From Burkholderiales bacterium (GTDB lineage: Bacteria; Pseudomonadota; Gammaproteobacteria; Burkholderiales; Burkholderiaceae_C), in assembly GCA_947372465.1 (NCBI GenBank), contig CANBTT010000026.1:1-41200 (forward strand): a stretch of 41,200 nt of DNA, written 5' to 3'. Below the pieces are notes generated by a model. That model worked only from the letters and a program-made list of their open reading frames with translations, did not search any database and was not told where the DNA came from. Below are positions 425 to 25,210 of this stretch, in pieces. Position 1 is the stretch's first letter; every line of letters starts with the position of its first letter. Both the position numbers and the translations under genes were made by a program.

Positions 425-1630
425 TCAATTGGCGTAGATCTTTCGCTCGTTCAGAGCTTGAACGGGTCTGGCGTTCAATTTGAAGGGGAATTTGGCCACT
501 TGAGCTTTGGAGATGTCGACATTGTTTTTCAAAATGAAGAAGCTCACGCCCTCTGTGCATGGCGGTGTTGTCAAAGAGCCTTCATAGGAGAAGAAGGACA
601 TGTCGCTTGGCAACAAGCTGGCTGGATTGATGATCATCTTGGCGGGCAAGTACTCTTCACCTTCTTTTGGGGGCAGATTGGCCCACAAAGATTTGATGGT
701 GGCGTTTTCTTTGCCTTCGTTCAAAAGCACACCCAGCACCGCCAACTTGCCCTCTTTGCTCTTGTGAACAAAGTGAACGGTCATGGCCAAATTCTTGCCG
801 TCAATTTGCTCTTCAGAGGGACGGTGGAAATGGAATTGCAAAAGTTCGTATTGCTCTTTGTTGACCTTCAATGTGCCCGTACCGGGTTCAATGTTGACTT
901 GAATGGTGTGCCCATTGTTGATGATCTTCATGGGGCCTTCCTTGTACTCGGCCTTGACAACTTCTTTGGACTTCTCAAAAGGTCCAACGATGTTCAAAGG
1001 CGACTGCTTCTTGCCCGCAGCGCAGGTGGCGAAATTCTCACCCCAATGCTCTGGACCGTTGTCACCCTCATAGCCCCAGTGCACATTGTGCCCAGATGAC
1101 TTGGCATGCTCAGTGGGTTTTTCGAGTTTGCCACTGCATTCGGCCAAGACTTTGACTTTTTTACCTGCAGAGACCAAGGCACTTTGCGCTGCACAGACCG
1201 CTTGCATGCGAGCGCCCAGTTCGGCAATGTCCAGAGATTTTTGGAAGGCATCAACAGCTGATGGGTCCTCAAAGCCTTTGCTCAGTTGTCGCACGGTCCC
1301 TAAGCCCACCAAACGCTCAGCACTCAAGACCTTTTGCGCTTTGTACAAAGCTTCTACGTCTTGGAGCAGCACACCATTGGCAAAGGCTTGTTTGACCACG
1401 TCAAATTGTTTGGCCGTCTCTTCGAGCTCTTCGCTCTTCTTTTGAGCCTCTTCGAGTTGCTCTTTGGTCTTGTCCAGGGTGTCTTTGGTCTCATCGAGTT
1501 CTGCCGACACCTCTTCCATGTCTTGCGACAGGTGTTTTTTACCGGAGAAATTCATGTACGCGAATGTGCTGGAGGCCACCAACAAGATGACCAGCAAAAC
1601 CTCAAGTGCGATTCGTAGATACTTTTTCAT
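425..1630 (-). CDS. Membrane-anchored alpha-class carbonic anhydrase with coiled-coil linker
   Basis: Predicted zinc enzyme interconverting CO2 and bicarbonate. The C-terminal half (from about residue 185) is an alpha-class carbonic anhydrase: an HWGYEG start, KKQSPLNI, the zinc-binding pair in QFHFHRPSEE, the third zinc His in MTVHFVH, and the active-site loop LTTPPCTEGV. The N-terminus (KKYLRIALEVLLVILLVASSTF) is a single membrane segment or uncleaved signal anchor. It is followed by a Glu/Lys-rich coiled coil (about residues 35-80) and a linker of about 100 residues, so the enzyme domain should be periplasmic and held off the membrane. At about 400 residues it is much longer than a typical secreted bacterial alpha enzyme. 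I chose the ATG at 1630, preceded by GTGAG at a 7-base gap; a GTG at 1642 adds four residues. No link to the flagellar genes is evident beyond position. Confidence 0.9.
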   Translation of the reverse strand: MKKYLRIALEVLLVILLVASSTFAYMNFSGKKHLSQDMEEVSAELDETKDTLDKTKEQLEEAQKKSEELEETAKQFDVVKQAFANGVLLQDVEALYKAQKVLSAERLVGLGTVRQLSKGFEDPSAVDAFQKSLDIAELGARMQAVCAAQSALVSAGKKVKVLAECSGKLEKPTEHAKSSGHNVHWGYEGDNGPEHWGENFATCAAGKKQSPLNIVGPFEKSKEVVKAEYKEGPMKIINNGHTIQVNIEPGTGTLKVNKEQYELLQFHFHRPSEEQIDGKNLAMTVHFVHKSKEGKLAVLGVLLNEGKENATIKSLWANLPPKEGEEYLPAKMIINPASLLPSDMSFFSYEGSLTTPPCTEGVSFFILKNNVDISKAQVAKFPFKLNARPVQALNERKIYAN

Positions 1631-1715
1631 TGCCAAACTCACAAAAGTTATAGGATTGATTCGAACAAATCAAAGGGCGATTATGACAAATTAAGCCCAA
1701 GATTGCGCATTGCTG

Positions 1716-6461: not shown

Positions 6462-6478
6462 TGGCACATCGATTGCTT
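6462..6478 (+). promoter_or_regulatory. Sigma-54 promoter of the flhA-flhF-flhG-fliA operon
   Basis: TGGCAC (6462-6467), five bases, then TTGCT (6473-6477) gives the exact GG-N10-GC spacing of the -24/-12 sigma-54 promoter. The predicted start, near 6488, is about 65 bases before the flhA ATG. Confidence 0.85.
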
Positions 6479-16917: not shown

Positions 16918-17409
16918 ATGAAACGTTTATCCATTGTCAGCGCAGCCGCCGTATTAACGCTCCTGAGCGCATGCTCCAGCACGCAATTCTTCAAGTCGGC
17001 TGAAGTGCATGCGCCTGCCCCCAACCCAAACATCTCTTTGCTCGCTCCCATGGCGGAGAAGCGGGAAACGTTTGTGGCGACTGGCTATGCAGTGATCAGC
17101 ATTCAAAACCACAAGAATCCCGCTCAACAACGCCTTTTGGCCATCCGTGCTTCAAAATTGGATGCGTACCGTGCCTTGACCGAGCAAGTGTATGGTCAGC
17201 ATTTGGATGCCAACACCACGGTGTCGGACATGACTGTGGTGAACGACACATTTCGCTCAAAGGTGGAAGGTGTGATTTATGGCGCTCAGTTGGTCAGCAT
17301 CACGCCCGTGAGCGATGACACGTATGAGACCACCTTGTCATTGGACAGAGCGGTGGTACAAGATTTGCGTAATTTGTATTTGCAACAACTTGCCATGCGC
17401 ACGCGCTAA
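16918..17409 (+). CDS. flgP: FlgP-like outer-membrane flagellar lipoprotein
   Basis: Predicted lipoprotein of the LPP20/FlgP family. In Vibrio and Campylobacter, FlgP forms an outer-membrane disk or H-ring part around the flagellar base. The 163-residue product has a lipoprotein signal (MKRLSIVSAAAVLTLLSACS, lipobox LLSAC with Cys at about residue 19). The mature domain contains FVATGYAVISIQ, RLLAIRASKLDAYRALTEQV and YGAQLVSITPVSDDTYETTL, the ARxxA..DAyr pattern of the family. I chose the ATG at 16918 because AAGGA lies 7 bases upstream; the frame stays open to a TTG at 16888. It is the first of three genes whose other members are FlgT-like and LysM-containing. The family also includes non-flagellar LPP20 proteins, but the context supports FlgP. 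Confidence 0.85.
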   Translation: MKRLSIVSAAAVLTLLSACSSTQFFKSAEVHAPAPNPNISLLAPMAEKRETFVATGYAVISIQNHKNPAQQRLLAIRASKLDAYRALTEQVYGQHLDANTTVSDMTVVNDTFRSKVEGVIYGAQLVSITPVSDDTYETTLSLDRAVVQDLRNLYLQQLAMRTR

Positions 17410-17426
17410 GCCCACTCTGGGCTTAG
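17406..17426 (+). other. Perfect stem-loop at the flgP stop codon
   Basis: CTAAGCCCA and TGGGCTTAG form a 9-bp stem with a 3-base loop and include the flgP TAA. There is no T-tract, so it is more likely an mRNA stability or processing element than a terminator. It could make flgP mRNA more abundant than that of the flgT-like gene. Confidence 0.6.
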
Positions 17427-17450
17427 GGTCTGTAACAGGTACACTTCAAA

Positions 17451-18791
17451 ATGACAGATCCTAGACGTCTACCCATGTTCAAAACACATCATTTTCACCA
17501 ACTGGGCTTGCTCAACAAATCGATGGCGACGGCGACTCGATTGCAAGGCAGGCAGGGGTTTGGATTTGTCTTTTGGGTGGATGTCTTGAGTGCATTGGGC
17601 TTGTTGGCCGTGTTGTGCATGATGGCGATGGTGGTGAATTTGTCCATCACCACCACCTGGGCACAAGAAAAAAACGCCCGAGAACTTGTTCGCTCAGACC
17701 TCAGCGCCGATCAACGACTGCAAGCGGTCCGCGAGTCCTTGGTCCAATTGGCGCTTGAAGGCCCTACCCAGGTCACCAGCACGTCCTTTATCGATGAAAG
17801 TGGCGCGCTAAGAGACAGCGCGTCCTTTACCCATGACATGGTGGTGAGGGGTGTCAGGGTCTTGGCTTACGGACGAGACGAAGGGGAGCCCAAAGCCCAG
17901 ATCAGCGCCAATCACCGAGCTTTGGACGCGACGCTCGCGTGCACGGCCCAATCGGGGAAGCCCTCAGCGCAAAACACAAAAGTGCAACACCTGGCCATTT
18001 TGGATGTGAACATGGATGCGAGCATCAAGCACGCTGACCTTTATCAAGCACGTTTGATTTCTAGGGCTTTGCAAGAGAGTTTACTCAAGCTCACAGACCG
18101 ATCTGAGCTTGTTCGACTCAATTTAAGAACCATGCCTGTGAGCTCACAGTCGATTTATGGTTTGTCGCAACCGAGTTCAAGTGCGTCCTCTTCACTGCAA
18201 GCCAATCAAACCTTTTCCTCAGGCATGAACTATTACCAGCAAGCCTTGCTGGGTCGTGGGGATCAACGCGTGACTTGGTCTTTGAGTTTGAAGCTCGCTC
18301 CAGCAAAAGATGAAATTTCACAGGCGCCAGGATTGAAGGTCACTGCAACGCTCTTGAGCAAACTGGATCGTCATTTTTTGTTTGAAGATCAGCAATATGT
18401 TTGGTTTGAGGGCAAAAACCCAAATCAAGTGAGTTCGGTGCTCTCCAACGTCATGAACGAGCAAGTACAAGCACTGGCACGGTTGATTCAGCGCAGCGTT
18501 GAGGACCAACTCGCTTGCATTCCGCCCCAATTTGAAGTGACCAAATGGAGTGGGCAAGACATGAACATTGCAGCGGGCATGGTCAATGGATTGCGCGTGG
18601 GCGACCAGATGTTGGTCGGTGACCCGGAGGTCATCCCCTCGCGCATTTTGGACAAGGGCGCCATGAACAAATTGGTGCTGGCGGAAATCAAATCTGTGAC
18701 GCCTTATTCCGCGCAGTTAAAGCAAATAGCGGGGCCCACAATCAAGACTTCAGAACACTGGGTCGCCGTGGCCCATCGGCCCGTCAATTGA
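17451..18791 (+). CDS. flgT: FlgT-like flagellar H-ring protein
   Basis: In Vibrio, FlgT is a periplasmic protein needed to build the H-ring outside the LP-ring and to hold MotX/MotY. This 446-residue product has a hydrophobic signal or anchor segment after about 40 residues (FWVDVLSALGLLAVLCMMAMV). An N-terminal region follows with the repeated Ala-rich helix pattern (LVRSDLSADQRLQAVRESLV), then a middle domain. The C-terminal domain (about 375-440), with GLRVGDQMLVGDP and IPSRILDKGAMNKLVLAEI, ending YSAQLKQIAGP, resembles the FlgT C-domain. It follows flgP after 41 bases. The start is uncertain: the ATG at 17523 would place the signal segment nearer the N-terminus. MotX and MotY genes are not in the window. 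Confidence 0.72.
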   Translation: MTDPRRLPMFKTHHFHQLGLLNKSMATATRLQGRQGFGFVFWVDVLSALGLLAVLCMMAMVVNLSITTTWAQEKNARELVRSDLSADQRLQAVRESLVQLALEGPTQVTSTSFIDESGALRDSASFTHDMVVRGVRVLAYGRDEGEPKAQISANHRALDATLACTAQSGKPSAQNTKVQHLAILDVNMDASIKHADLYQARLISRALQESLLKLTDRSELVRLNLRTMPVSSQSIYGLSQPSSSASSSLQANQTFSSGMNYYQQALLGRGDQRVTWSLSLKLAPAKDEISQAPGLKVTATLLSKLDRHFLFEDQQYVWFEGKNPNQVSSVLSNVMNEQVQALARLIQRSVEDQLACIPPQFEVTKWSGQDMNIAAGMVNGLRVGDQMLVGDPEVIPSRILDKGAMNKLVLAEIKSVTPYSAQLKQIAGPTIKTSEHWVAVAHRPVN

Positions 18792-18819
18792 GAAATTTTT
18801 ATTGTCTTTGGAGAGATTC

Positions 18820-19410
18820 ATGAAAGTAACAATCGCAATGCTCGTAAAAACTTCGCTGTTGAGCCTTTTGCTTCAGCAGGCTGTGGCTGTGGCTCAGCCC
18901 TTGGAATTGGTGATGTTGAACGACAAGTCGGGCTTGTTGCCGCCAGAAGAAAAAAGTGCCAAAGATGAGGGTGGCAAAAATGCGCCGCCCAAGAGCACGC
19001 TGCCGGCCAAGAAAGCCTCGGCGGTGTCGCCCACAGATCGGCCGAGCGCTGCAACGCCTGCCAATGCGCCGACGCGCTCAAGCTATGTGGTCAAGACAGG
19101 CGACAATTTGGACAAGATCATTGCGCAAAATTACCCTGACAGTGTGATCAAAACCGAAGTGTTGAAAAAAGAATTGATGGCGCTCAACCCACAAGCGTTT
19201 TCAAAAAACAACCCCAAGATGCTTTTAAGCGGCGTGACACTCCAATTGCCCAGTGCAACGCAGTTGCTGGGCAAGCAAGCAAGCAACGCTGGCTCAACTT
19301 GGTCGAGTGAAAAAACCAAGCTGAGCCAGTCCGGTTACACCATCTATCCGCCCTTGCAAGCCACTGCGCAGACGAGTGAGAAACGCCGCAACTGGGTGCA
19401 GTACCCTTAA
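18820..19410 (+). CDS. Secreted LysM-domain protein of the flgP-flgT operon
   Basis: Predicted periplasmic protein of 196 residues. It has a signal peptide (MKVTIAMLVKTSLLSLLLQQ then AVAVAQ), a Lys/Pro/Ala-rich linker, and one LysM-like domain (about residues 87-145) starting SYVVKTGDNLDKIIAQNYPD and ending LLSGVTLQLPS, similar in style to the LysM region of FimV-type proteins. A Tyr/Trp-rich tail ends RRNWVQYP. The ATG at 18820 has GGAGAG 4 bases upstream. LysM domains bind peptidoglycan, so the protein could anchor the FlgP/FlgT-type ring to the wall; that is inference from the operon. It is not recognisably FlgO, the third member of the Vibrio group. Confidence 0.82.
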   Translation: MKVTIAMLVKTSLLSLLLQQAVAVAQPLELVMLNDKSGLLPPEEKSAKDEGGKNAPPKSTLPAKKASAVSPTDRPSAATPANAPTRSSYVVKTGDNLDKIIAQNYPDSVIKTEVLKKELMALNPQAFSKNNPKMLLSGVTLQLPSATQLLGKQASNAGSTWSSEKTKLSQSGYTIYPPLQATAQTSEKRRNWVQYP

Positions 19411-19571: not shown

Positions 19572-20750
19572 TTGTTGCAAGGTCCTGATCTCGTTTTAGG
19601 TGTCCCGAGGGTGCCTTTGGTACAAATGGAGAGCAAGCCCATTTGGGTTGAAAGCCGTGTGGCTCAACAATTGGGGCTCACCGACAAGCAAATCGTTCAA
19701 GCCACCGTGTCCCTCAACTCAGGCAGTGTGCGCTTGTGGCTCAAAGATTTTTCCTTTGAGATTCCCAACACTTGGGCCCTCAAACCTGGGGACATGCCTT
19801 TTGTGCGGGCCACACAAAACGCGCAAGGCTGGAATGTTCAATTGACGGGAAAGTCCCCCCTCACAAGTGCTGACGCAGCCGCTGCAAAGACCGCCACACT
19901 GTCTTCTGCAGCCCTTGTGACCCCGCAAAAATTCAACGCTCAATTGGGCCTGATGGGCCTGCCTGGCGCTGTGCAATCGGAGCAAAATTTGGGCTCCAAA
20001 CTGGGCATGTTGCTGCAGCAACAAGTGGATTTTTCGCAAAGCGCAATGCTTTTGAGGCCCGACCAATTGACCCTGATGGCGAACAATCCATCTCTTGGAC
20101 AGTGGTTGTCTGTGTTTAAAAAAATGTCCTTGAGCATGTCGCATGTGTCGGCGCCCAGTTTAAAGAAAATGGTGCTCTCTCAATCGGTCAGTTCAGAGCA
20201 TTTGCTCGCCAGCGGTGAAGAGGTTGAAGACTCTCCCAGATCGATGCTTCGCACACTCTTGCAGACGCTGGAGTCATCGCACTCAGAGGACAAGTTGGAG
20301 GCGAAAGCACACATCAACCGAGCGCTTGAAGAGATGGAGTCGGCACAAGCGCAGTGTGCACAAGACTGGGCCCGAGGCGCATTGTCGCTCAAAGTGGTGA
20401 TTCCATTTGTCGATGCTGATCCGGTGGATTTGCATTTTAAAAAACCTCCTCGCCAGCAAGGGGAAAGCGACACGCCTTTGAGTGTGGACATCCACTCCAA
20501 GAGCCGTCTTCTTGGTGAGGTTTGGCTCAACACCACGATCACGCAAGGGCGGCAAGTCGATTTGGTGATGTGGGCTGTCAAACCGGAGGTGGCGCAGCTT
20601 GCAAAAGTGAACTCGAAAGAATTGGGTTTTGAGTTGGCCGACTCTGGTTTGAAGCTCAGCAGTTTTCAGATTTTTAATGTGCCAAGACCCCAAGAGGTGC
20701 TCCTTGAGACCTTGCCGAAATTGGGCACCGTGGTCGATGCCAAAGCCTGA
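19572..20750 (+). CDS. Second FliK-like protein with C-terminal hook-length-control domain
   Basis: Predicted 392-residue FliK-family protein, distinct from fliK at 3908. Its C-terminal domain (about 275-380) matches the Flg_hook fold in style: LSVDIHSKSRLLGEVWLNTT, then VDLVMWAVKPEVAQLAKVNS and FELADSGLKLSSFQIFNVPRP. The N-terminal region (1-95) looks like a small beta domain (IVQATVSLNSGSVRLWLKDF), and the middle is helical and Gln/Ser-rich. The start is a TTG: the only in-frame ATG nearby (19626) has no ribosome site, whereas AGGTGG lies 6 bases before the TTG at 19572. It is followed by an FlhB C-domain homologue, the same pairing as YlqG-YlqH of Bacillus. It may tune or replace part of the export specificity switch. 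Confidence 0.75.
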   Translation: MLQGPDLVLGVPRVPLVQMESKPIWVESRVAQQLGLTDKQIVQATVSLNSGSVRLWLKDFSFEIPNTWALKPGDMPFVRATQNAQGWNVQLTGKSPLTSADAAAAKTATLSSAALVTPQKFNAQLGLMGLPGAVQSEQNLGSKLGMLLQQQVDFSQSAMLLRPDQLTLMANNPSLGQWLSVFKKMSLSMSHVSAPSLKKMVLSQSVSSEHLLASGEEVEDSPRSMLRTLLQTLESSHSEDKLEAKAHINRALEEMESAQAQCAQDWARGALSLKVVIPFVDADPVDLHFKKPPRQQGESDTPLSVDIHSKSRLLGEVWLNTTITQGRQVDLVMWAVKPEVAQLAKVNSKELGFELADSGLKLSSFQIFNVPRPQEVLLETLPKLGTVVDAKA

Positions 20751-20766
20751 TCATGAAGAGCGCGCC

Positions 20767-21048
20767 ATGAACAAACCCCTCGAAGCGCTGGCCCTTGAGT
20801 ACGGCAAGCTAAAAACCCCCAAAGTGACGGCCAAAGGACAAAACGAGTTGGCCCGTCGGATCATTGAGGAGGCCAAAAAGCAAGGGGTGTATGTGGCGGA
20901 AGATCCGCAGCTCCTCGCCTTGCTCAGTAAACTTGATGTGGGAGAAGACATCCCGCAAGACATGTTCACGGCCGTGGCGGTGATTTTGTCGTGGGTGTAT
21001 TGGCTCAAGGGCATGAAGCCAGGGGACGAAAAAGCAAAAAGCCCATAA
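20767..21048 (+). CDS. flhX: FlhX, stand-alone homologue of the FlhB cytoplasmic C-domain
   Basis: A 93-residue soluble protein matching the part of FlhB released after self-cleavage. The frame includes ALALEYGKLKTPKVTAKGQN, ELARRIIEEAKKQGVYVAED, then LLSKLDVGEDIPQDMFTAVA and LSWVYWLKGM. In FlhB the domain starts at NPTHYAVAL; here the start reads MNKPLEALALEYG, so the NPTH autocleavage motif is missing and the protein begins about where cleaved FlhB-CC does. In Campylobacter and Helicobacter, FlhX can substitute for that fragment. The ATG at 20767 follows AAGAG. It lies 16 bases after the FliK-like gene, so the two are likely one functional pair. Confidence 0.85.
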   Translation: MNKPLEALALEYGKLKTPKVTAKGQNELARRIIEEAKKQGVYVAEDPQLLALLSKLDVGEDIPQDMFTAVAVILSWVYWLKGMKPGDEKAKSP

Positions 21049-23131: not shown

Positions 23132-23148
23132 AAGCAAACTTAATGCCA
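23132..23148 (-). promoter_or_regulatory. Sigma-54 promoter of flgA
   Basis: On the minus strand TGGCATTAAGTTTGCTT has exact GG-N10-GC spacing, with TGGCA at -24 and TTGCT at -12. The predicted start, near 23122, is 50-105 bases before the possible flgA starts. It reads away from the LysM-transglycosylase gene. Confidence 0.75.
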
Positions 23149-25193: not shown

Positions 25194-25210
25194 TGGCACA
25201 CCTTTTGCAT
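25194..25210 (+). promoter_or_regulatory. Sigma-54 promoter of the flgB operon
   Basis: TGGCAC (25194-25199), five bases, then TTGCAT gives exact GG-N10-GC spacing. The predicted start, near 25220, is about 80 bases before flgB. An off-spacing look-alike at 25083 was not counted. Confidence 0.85.

Follow-up and report, generated by a model that had tools for sequence, protein, structure and literature searches.

The 41,200-nucleotide stretch analyzed here (the window; contig CANBTT010000026.1 of a freshwater Burkholderiales bacterium related to Comamonas) is filled almost end to end with flagellar genes. Among them are three consecutive genes that encode a FlgP lipoprotein, a divergent FlgT, and a small secreted LysM protein (Table 1). 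The first-pass annotation had proposed these three genes in an apparent betaproteobacterium, and both points hold, the nearest named loci and closest named sequences being from uncultured Burkholderiales and Comamonadaceae genomes. The source genome comprises 3.05 Mb (completeness 99.7%, contamination 2.7%), with the window as contig 26. One strand carries fliN, fliM, fliL, and fliK; further genes are, in order, flhA, genes for an SRP54-type GTPase and a ParA-type ATPase (which we read as flhF and flhG), a flagellar-type sigma factor gene, fliS, motA, motB, and a sigma-54 activator gene. The three genes follow this activator and are themselves followed by a second fliK-like gene, a gene resembling the C-terminal part of flhB, flgN, flgM, flgA, flgB to flgK, a gene for a flagellin-family protein, fliD, and flaG. 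Some of these names were assigned from gene order, and the start codons of flgP, flgT, and the LysM gene are our choice.

Table 1. Features of the flgP–flgT–LysM cassette and of its surroundings in the window
Feature	Position	Strand	Basis or remark
flgP, outer-membrane lipoprotein, LPP20/FlgP family, 163 residues	16918..17409	+	LPP20 above Pfam cut-off
Lipobox LSAC, residues 16–19, cysteine 19	16963..16974	+	pattern only
flgT, divergent FlgT, 446 residues, N-terminal signal helix	17451..18791	+	family profile, hhalign, Foldseek
FlgT N-like region, residues 86–152	17706..17906	+	low model confidence, assignment uncertain; covered by hhalign
FlgT M-like (TolB-N-like) region, residues 166–354	17946..18512	+	low-confidence insert at 228–260
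FlgT C domain, residues 360–445	18528..18785	+	family profile, FlgT_C matches in family, fold
Secreted LysM protein, 196 residues: signal helix, disordered linker, one FimV-type LysM, C-terminal tail	18820..19410	+	FimV_core and model
LysM domain, residues 88–155	19081..19284	+	block with predicted local distance difference test score (pLDDT) 86–91 over residues 91–150
Conserved C-terminal tail, W[VI]x[FY]P at very end, basic residues before	19384..19407	+	open reading frames of loci and database relatives
Second FliK-like protein	19572-20750	+	after LysM gene; matches in 39 of 45 related loci
Stand-alone FlhB C-terminal-like protein	20677-21048	+	after LysM gene; matches in 37 of 45 related loci
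Sigma-54-like site	6462-6477	+	zero mismatch, upstream of flhA
Sigma-54-like site	23133-23148	-	zero mismatch, upstream of flgA
Sigma-54-like site	25194-25209	+	zero mismatch, upstream of flgB
LysM-containing protein, 645 residues	23143-25080	+	upstream of flgB
FlgJ, 186 residues	33489-34049	+	matches N-terminal part only of FlgJ models
Alpha carbonic anhydrase (eukaryotic type)	425-1642	-	adjoins fliN
Protein of 283 residues	11855-12706	+	between sigma factor gene and fliS
Hook protein FlgE, 953 residues	26925-29786	+	

The LPP20 match of FlgP (32.6 bits against a cut-off of 25.9, E = 1.1e-7) is the only one in the genome. The family profile A4, built from 18 rows, finds the solved FlgP of Vibrio (LPHT-ring entry 8z5n) with E = 3.2e-18 as well as further chains named FlgP or lipoprotein, in agreement with the first-pass assignment to the LPP20/FlgP lipoproteins. 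Across this alignment, identity to FlgP of the window ranges from 56 to 91%, and the lipobox cysteine is invariant.

FlgT is less readily recognized. Alone, the protein matches no FlgT Pfam model at E-values up to 1, and a single-protein NCBIfam scan likewise returns none; these scans would place it outside the FlgT family, a verdict that the family profile and the fold reverse. Searched against solved sequences, the family profile finds four FlgT chains (E = 2.7e-6 to 6.5e-5), which are all of the matches below 0.001, the next one having an E-value of 0.19. Comparison with a FlgT alignment by hhalign, which is partly circular, gives a probability of 98.1 and E = 1.4e-13 over 308 columns covering all three regions. 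Foldseek aligns the predicted model with FlgT of the LPHT ring (E = 2.8e-13). By fold, the likeness to FlgT spans the M and C domains, and FlgT ranks well above the next entries. Within the 32-member family, FlgT_C is matched by 15 members at E-values up to 1 (best 1e-7), and neither FlgT_N nor FlgT_M is among the 10 Pfam families listed. In the class sample, the FlgT-family profile found 5 of 258 genomes, and in four of these the match is confined to a part of the C-terminal region. The FlgT kinship suggested by the first-pass annotation is thus borne out, but its restriction to a C-domain is not, because the fold match takes in M as well as C, and the profile–profile comparison takes in all three regions. 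The N region is modeled at low confidence, and the alignment of the model to 3w1e, which begins at residue 125, covers it only partly. FlgP and FlgT are kin of the H-ring proteins of Vibrio.

The LysM protein matches FimV_core with E = 3.4e-6 and 26.8 bits, below the NCBIfam cut-off of 43.45, and 24 of 28 members of its family do so at E-values up to 0.01 (best 1.1e-10). The predicted model, which was compared by VIA-align, has a LysM fold. The C-terminal tail is present in 42 of the 43 LysM-gene open reading frames found in related loci (one being the window's own), and the single exception ends at a contig end. All of the best 120 of 163 database relatives also carry it, a count that is biased upwards because the search profile contained the tail and the best 120 of 163 were listed; the open reading frames of the loci, found through FlgT and synteny, give the fairer count. 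This invariant tail common to the relatives of the LysM protein is new. When the class was searched with the LysM profile, 187 of 258 genomes gave matches, mostly in long frames among the matches listed; the search therefore maps FimV-type domains and not the LysM-tail protein.

The cassette is conserved as a unit. In 41 of 45 loci from named genomes, flgP, flgT, and the LysM gene follow each other in this order; in the remaining four, the contig stops at the FlgT gene or inside it. These loci, some of which are close copies, include Limnohabitans, other Comamonadaceae, and Porticoccaceae (Gammaproteobacteria). Nine further loci are of the same type, eight with the LysM gene and one cut by a contig end. 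Among the relatives examined, the LysM partner is conserved wherever the locus is long enough, and other flagellar genes adjoin it in most of the loci that extend far enough. One metagenome-assembled genome, bin-193, carries two cassettes (L003 and L005), with FlgT proteins 76% and 51% identical to that of the window, which reflects either two flagellar systems or a mixed bin. A FlgP tree of 81 rows separates most LysM-type and Porticoccaceae sequences from most canonical betaproteobacterial ones with a support of 61/84. Because this support is weak, one locus (L137) falls on the opposite side of the split, and the rows include several fragmentary sequences on very long branches, we infer no gene transfer from it.

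For comparison we used 18 flgP–flgT loci from other families of the order (L140–L157). FlgT of these other Betaproteobacteria is recognized by Pfam in most cases, and automatic annotation already calls it in Chitinibacter and Deefgea. The FlgT of L145 has the same sequence as a protein assigned to Chitinibacter fontanus (Chitinibacter is placed in the Neisseriales), and relatives are assigned to Deefgea, Andreprevotia, Jeongeupia, and Iodobacter. Eight of the 18 loci encode a short secreted protein, mostly proline/alanine-rich, with a similar C-terminal tail whose end reads WxxY[ST][FY]P. The gene lies directly after flgT in seven of these loci and between flgP and flgT in one. No LysM domain is evident in the eight proteins by eye or with profile A3 (no match at E = 1e-4). 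Among the 1893 open reading frames of at least 50 residues in the 18 loci, only these eight have the tryptophan-to-proline end, against 0.7 expected from shuffling of the last 30 residues, with the pattern having been set after six loci were seen. Seven loci were fetched after it was set: one has the tail, five do not, and one (L156) is cut at a contig end. Altogether 10 of the 18 loci are without a tail gene, one of them cut. By family label, the gene occurs in four of six loci of f174, three of four of f202 (the fourth being cut), one of two of f184, and none of six of f197 and f220, where loci within one family are not independent. In 14 of the 18 comparison loci, FlgP is extended at its C terminus by a stretch that finishes with an aromatic motif, by a pattern set after the ends were seen; the window FlgP is without this extension.

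The two tail forms differ in spacing by two residues, and their homology is plausible. The occurrence of a similar tail on proteins without evident LysM beside flgP and flgT is the best evidence that ring specificity lies in the tail rather than in LysM. To judge from the sequences, the LysM protein looks like one form of a third component that is defined by its tail; the tail may serve as a ring-docking tag, and the LysM domain as an added peptidoglycan-binding head.

In Vibrio and Cereibacter (Rhodobacter) sphaeroides, the H-ring that encloses the L and P rings is described as formed by FlgT, and the disk under the outer membrane as formed by FlgP; the assembly aids outer-membrane passage and stator function (PMC7990780, PMC7277832). 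We propose that the three genes specify a variant H-ring, or basal disk, of the polar flagellar motor. We hold the H-ring reading of the genes to be very probable, and we put its combination with a LysM wall tether at a probability of about 0.6. FlgP would oligomerize beneath the outer membrane, whereas FlgT would encircle the L and P rings and join FlgP to them, as in Vibrio. The LysM protein would be secreted and grip peptidoglycan with its FimV-type head, as the LysM domain of FimV is reported to bind the wall in vitro (PMC12918733). Docking of the aromatic-proline tail on FlgP or FlgT would then brace the ring against both the cell wall and the outer membrane. The ring may also double as a stator-holding hub, as proposed for FlgT of C. 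sphaeroides, a possibility that is suggested by a single MotB and by FlgO and MotY not being detected.

Compared with the Vibrio system, in which FlgO, FlgP, and FlgT form the H-ring and MotX and MotY the T-ring, FlgP and FlgT are homologous by profile and fold, and the cassette likewise adjoins flgM, flgN, and flgA. The differences are that FlgO is not found, that MotY is not found (with a weak control), that a LysM-tail protein is added, and that the host is betaproteobacterial. The Fla1 system of C. sphaeroides resembles the window in having FlgP and FlgT without MotX/MotY homologues, a MotAB motor, and FliL, and it works with a proton channel (PMC7277832). It is, however, alphaproteobacterial and acquired by transfer, and the part of its description at hand mentions no LysM-tail partner (PMC7277832). 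In Helicobacter pylori, the gene for a small envelope protein, FapH, lies beside flgP, and an additional ring close to the outer membrane is reported to require FapH (PMC11756786); FapH is a lipoprotein, and we liken it by description only. The canonical Betaproteobacteria compared above share the FlgP–FlgT pair and, in part, an adjacent protein with a similar tail.

The idea that LysM takes the place of FlgO, advanced by the first-pass annotation, fares less well. FlgO has no match in the genome, which agrees with that idea, and the model finds its target elsewhere, with matches in 18 of 258 class genomes, nine of them strong. Yet among the 11 FlgP-positive class genomes, FlgO is matched in only three, twice weakly, and neither the seven others nor the window's own genome show a match. 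FlgP thus commonly stands without FlgO, which makes a replacement less plausible. The LysM gene also lies after flgT. That the third gene is itself flgO is ruled out, its domain being LysM/FimV-type and its product no FlgO homologue. As to the stators, the genome holds one MotB-plug match, and MotA matches seven solved sequences, all named MotA and none PomA, which is too weak to decide the ion choice. A BLASTP survey ties the H-ring genes to sodium-driven gammaproteobacterial motors, with FlgO, FlgP, and FlgT accompanying sodium stators apart from one FlgO exception (PMC6375700). Because C. sphaeroides combines FlgP and FlgT with a proton channel, a break with this rule would not be unique.

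Several observations weigh against a wall-tethered ring. Only 9 of the 220 family genomes carry FlgP, one of them as a weak match, so that most relatives do not need the ring. The corresponding counts are 21 of 220 for the order and 11 of 258 for the class sample, each taking in the source genome, and the ring genes are thus an uncommon trait. Moreover, global TM-scores of the FlgT model to FlgT are low (0.39–0.48), its N region is poorly modeled, and the tail is modeled at low confidence. The gene order differs in the FlgO-bearing class genome examined (L099), and the MotY model, which had no match in our genome, matched nowhere in the controls either.

The LysM protein might instead be a reduced FimV, a polar landmark that reads septal or polar peptidoglycan and guides the site of motor and ring without being a structural part of the latter. 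Its LysM domain resembles FimV_core throughout most of the family, several relatives are named "Tfp pilus assembly protein FimV" by JGI, FimV/HubP proteins are reported to influence polar flagella (PMC12918733), and the presumed flhF and flhG lie in the same cluster. FimV/HubP landmarks would share with the 196-residue protein the LysM type and a periplasmic location. The transmembrane, acidic cytoplasmic, and TPR/FimV C-domain parts are, however, missing from the window protein, which has only signal helix, linker, LysM, and conserved tail. Two other profile matches in the genome, in long frames of 624 and 577 residues, are better FimV candidates, and a similar tail sits on secreted proteins without evident LysM beside flgP–flgT. 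A landmark function therefore appears unlikely to us. An involvement in assembly alone, for example in marking the peptidoglycan hole for the rod and P-ring, with the protein absent from the finished motor, seems more doubtful still. The match of FlgJ to FlgJ models is confined to their N-terminal part, and another LysM protein is encoded upstream of flgB, so that wall-related functions are spread over separate genes, but no hydrolase domain was detected in the 196-residue protein, and its operon partners are ring proteins.

It is also conceivable that FlgP and FlgT have drifted to a different role in the envelope, so that the locus would be an H-ring only by name. Folds of the LPP20 and TolB types are common, FlgT alone lacks a FlgT Pfam match, and in fold comparison TolB, LptE, and PelC resemble its middle domain. 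Against this stand the distance by fold between FlgT and the next entries, the sequence conservation of FlgP across its 18 rows, and the flagellar genes that adjoin the cassette in most loci long enough; we regard such a drift as highly improbable. The variant H-ring with a LysM wall tether remains the reading that we prefer.

A literature search found nothing that joins FlgP with flagella of Betaproteobacteria. The matches listed contained no FlgT or FlgP in Comamonadaceae, Limnohabitans, Chromobacterium, or Burkholderiales and no LysM tied to FlgP, FlgT, or the flagellar H ring. A 2026 review, as far as its excerpted text goes, gives H-ring parts for gammaproteobacteria and one alphaproteobacterium (PMC13023049). 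Disks of 90 nm beneath the outer membrane of Aquaspirillum serpens, described in 1977, are presented as unexplained (PMC7990780). A. serpens is placed in the Neisseriales, and FlgP and FlgT in several families of Betaproteobacteria are candidate genes for its disks. In the betaproteobacterium Hylemonella gracilis, a ring of unknown proteins around the stators is called analogous to the T-ring (PMC5758724), which makes a link to FlgP/FlgT weaker. The 45 loci, which come from one contig scan that is no test of absence, include no Hylemonella or Aquaspirillum.

Tentatively, and with somewhat less than even confidence, we suggest that FlgP–FlgT rings of Betaproteobacteria and some Porticoccaceae have a class of third component that would be defined by an aromatic-proline tail plugging into the ring. 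The head would be exchangeable, a disordered proline/alanine-rich arm in the Chitinibacter type and a FimV-type LysM in the freshwater Comamonadaceae type, of which the LysM form would bolt the outer-membrane disk to peptidoglycan. The A. serpens disk might be a ring of this kind. The tail motif offers a way to probe the docking of accessory proteins onto motor rings; with the LysM head one can ask whether stator holding needs a wall-anchored ring.

Elsewhere in the window, six sigma-54-like sites have zero mismatches, none of which precedes flgP; with up to one mismatch, 64 sites were observed against 43 expected. The 645-residue protein encoded upstream of flgB has a LysM domain (E = 4.3e-4) just under the cut-off. 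Matches to it occur in 12 of the 45 related loci, and many of these loci end too early for the gene to be seen. The protein has no solved relative by sequence, no evident signal peptide by eye, and no detected hydrolase domain. Because FlgJ matches only the N-terminal part of its models, this protein may be a candidate for a separate rod-associated wall enzyme. The 283-residue protein belongs to no Pfam family and has relatives in several related loci. The carbonic anhydrase carries ∼190 extra N-terminal residues, and FlgE is very long for a hook subunit.
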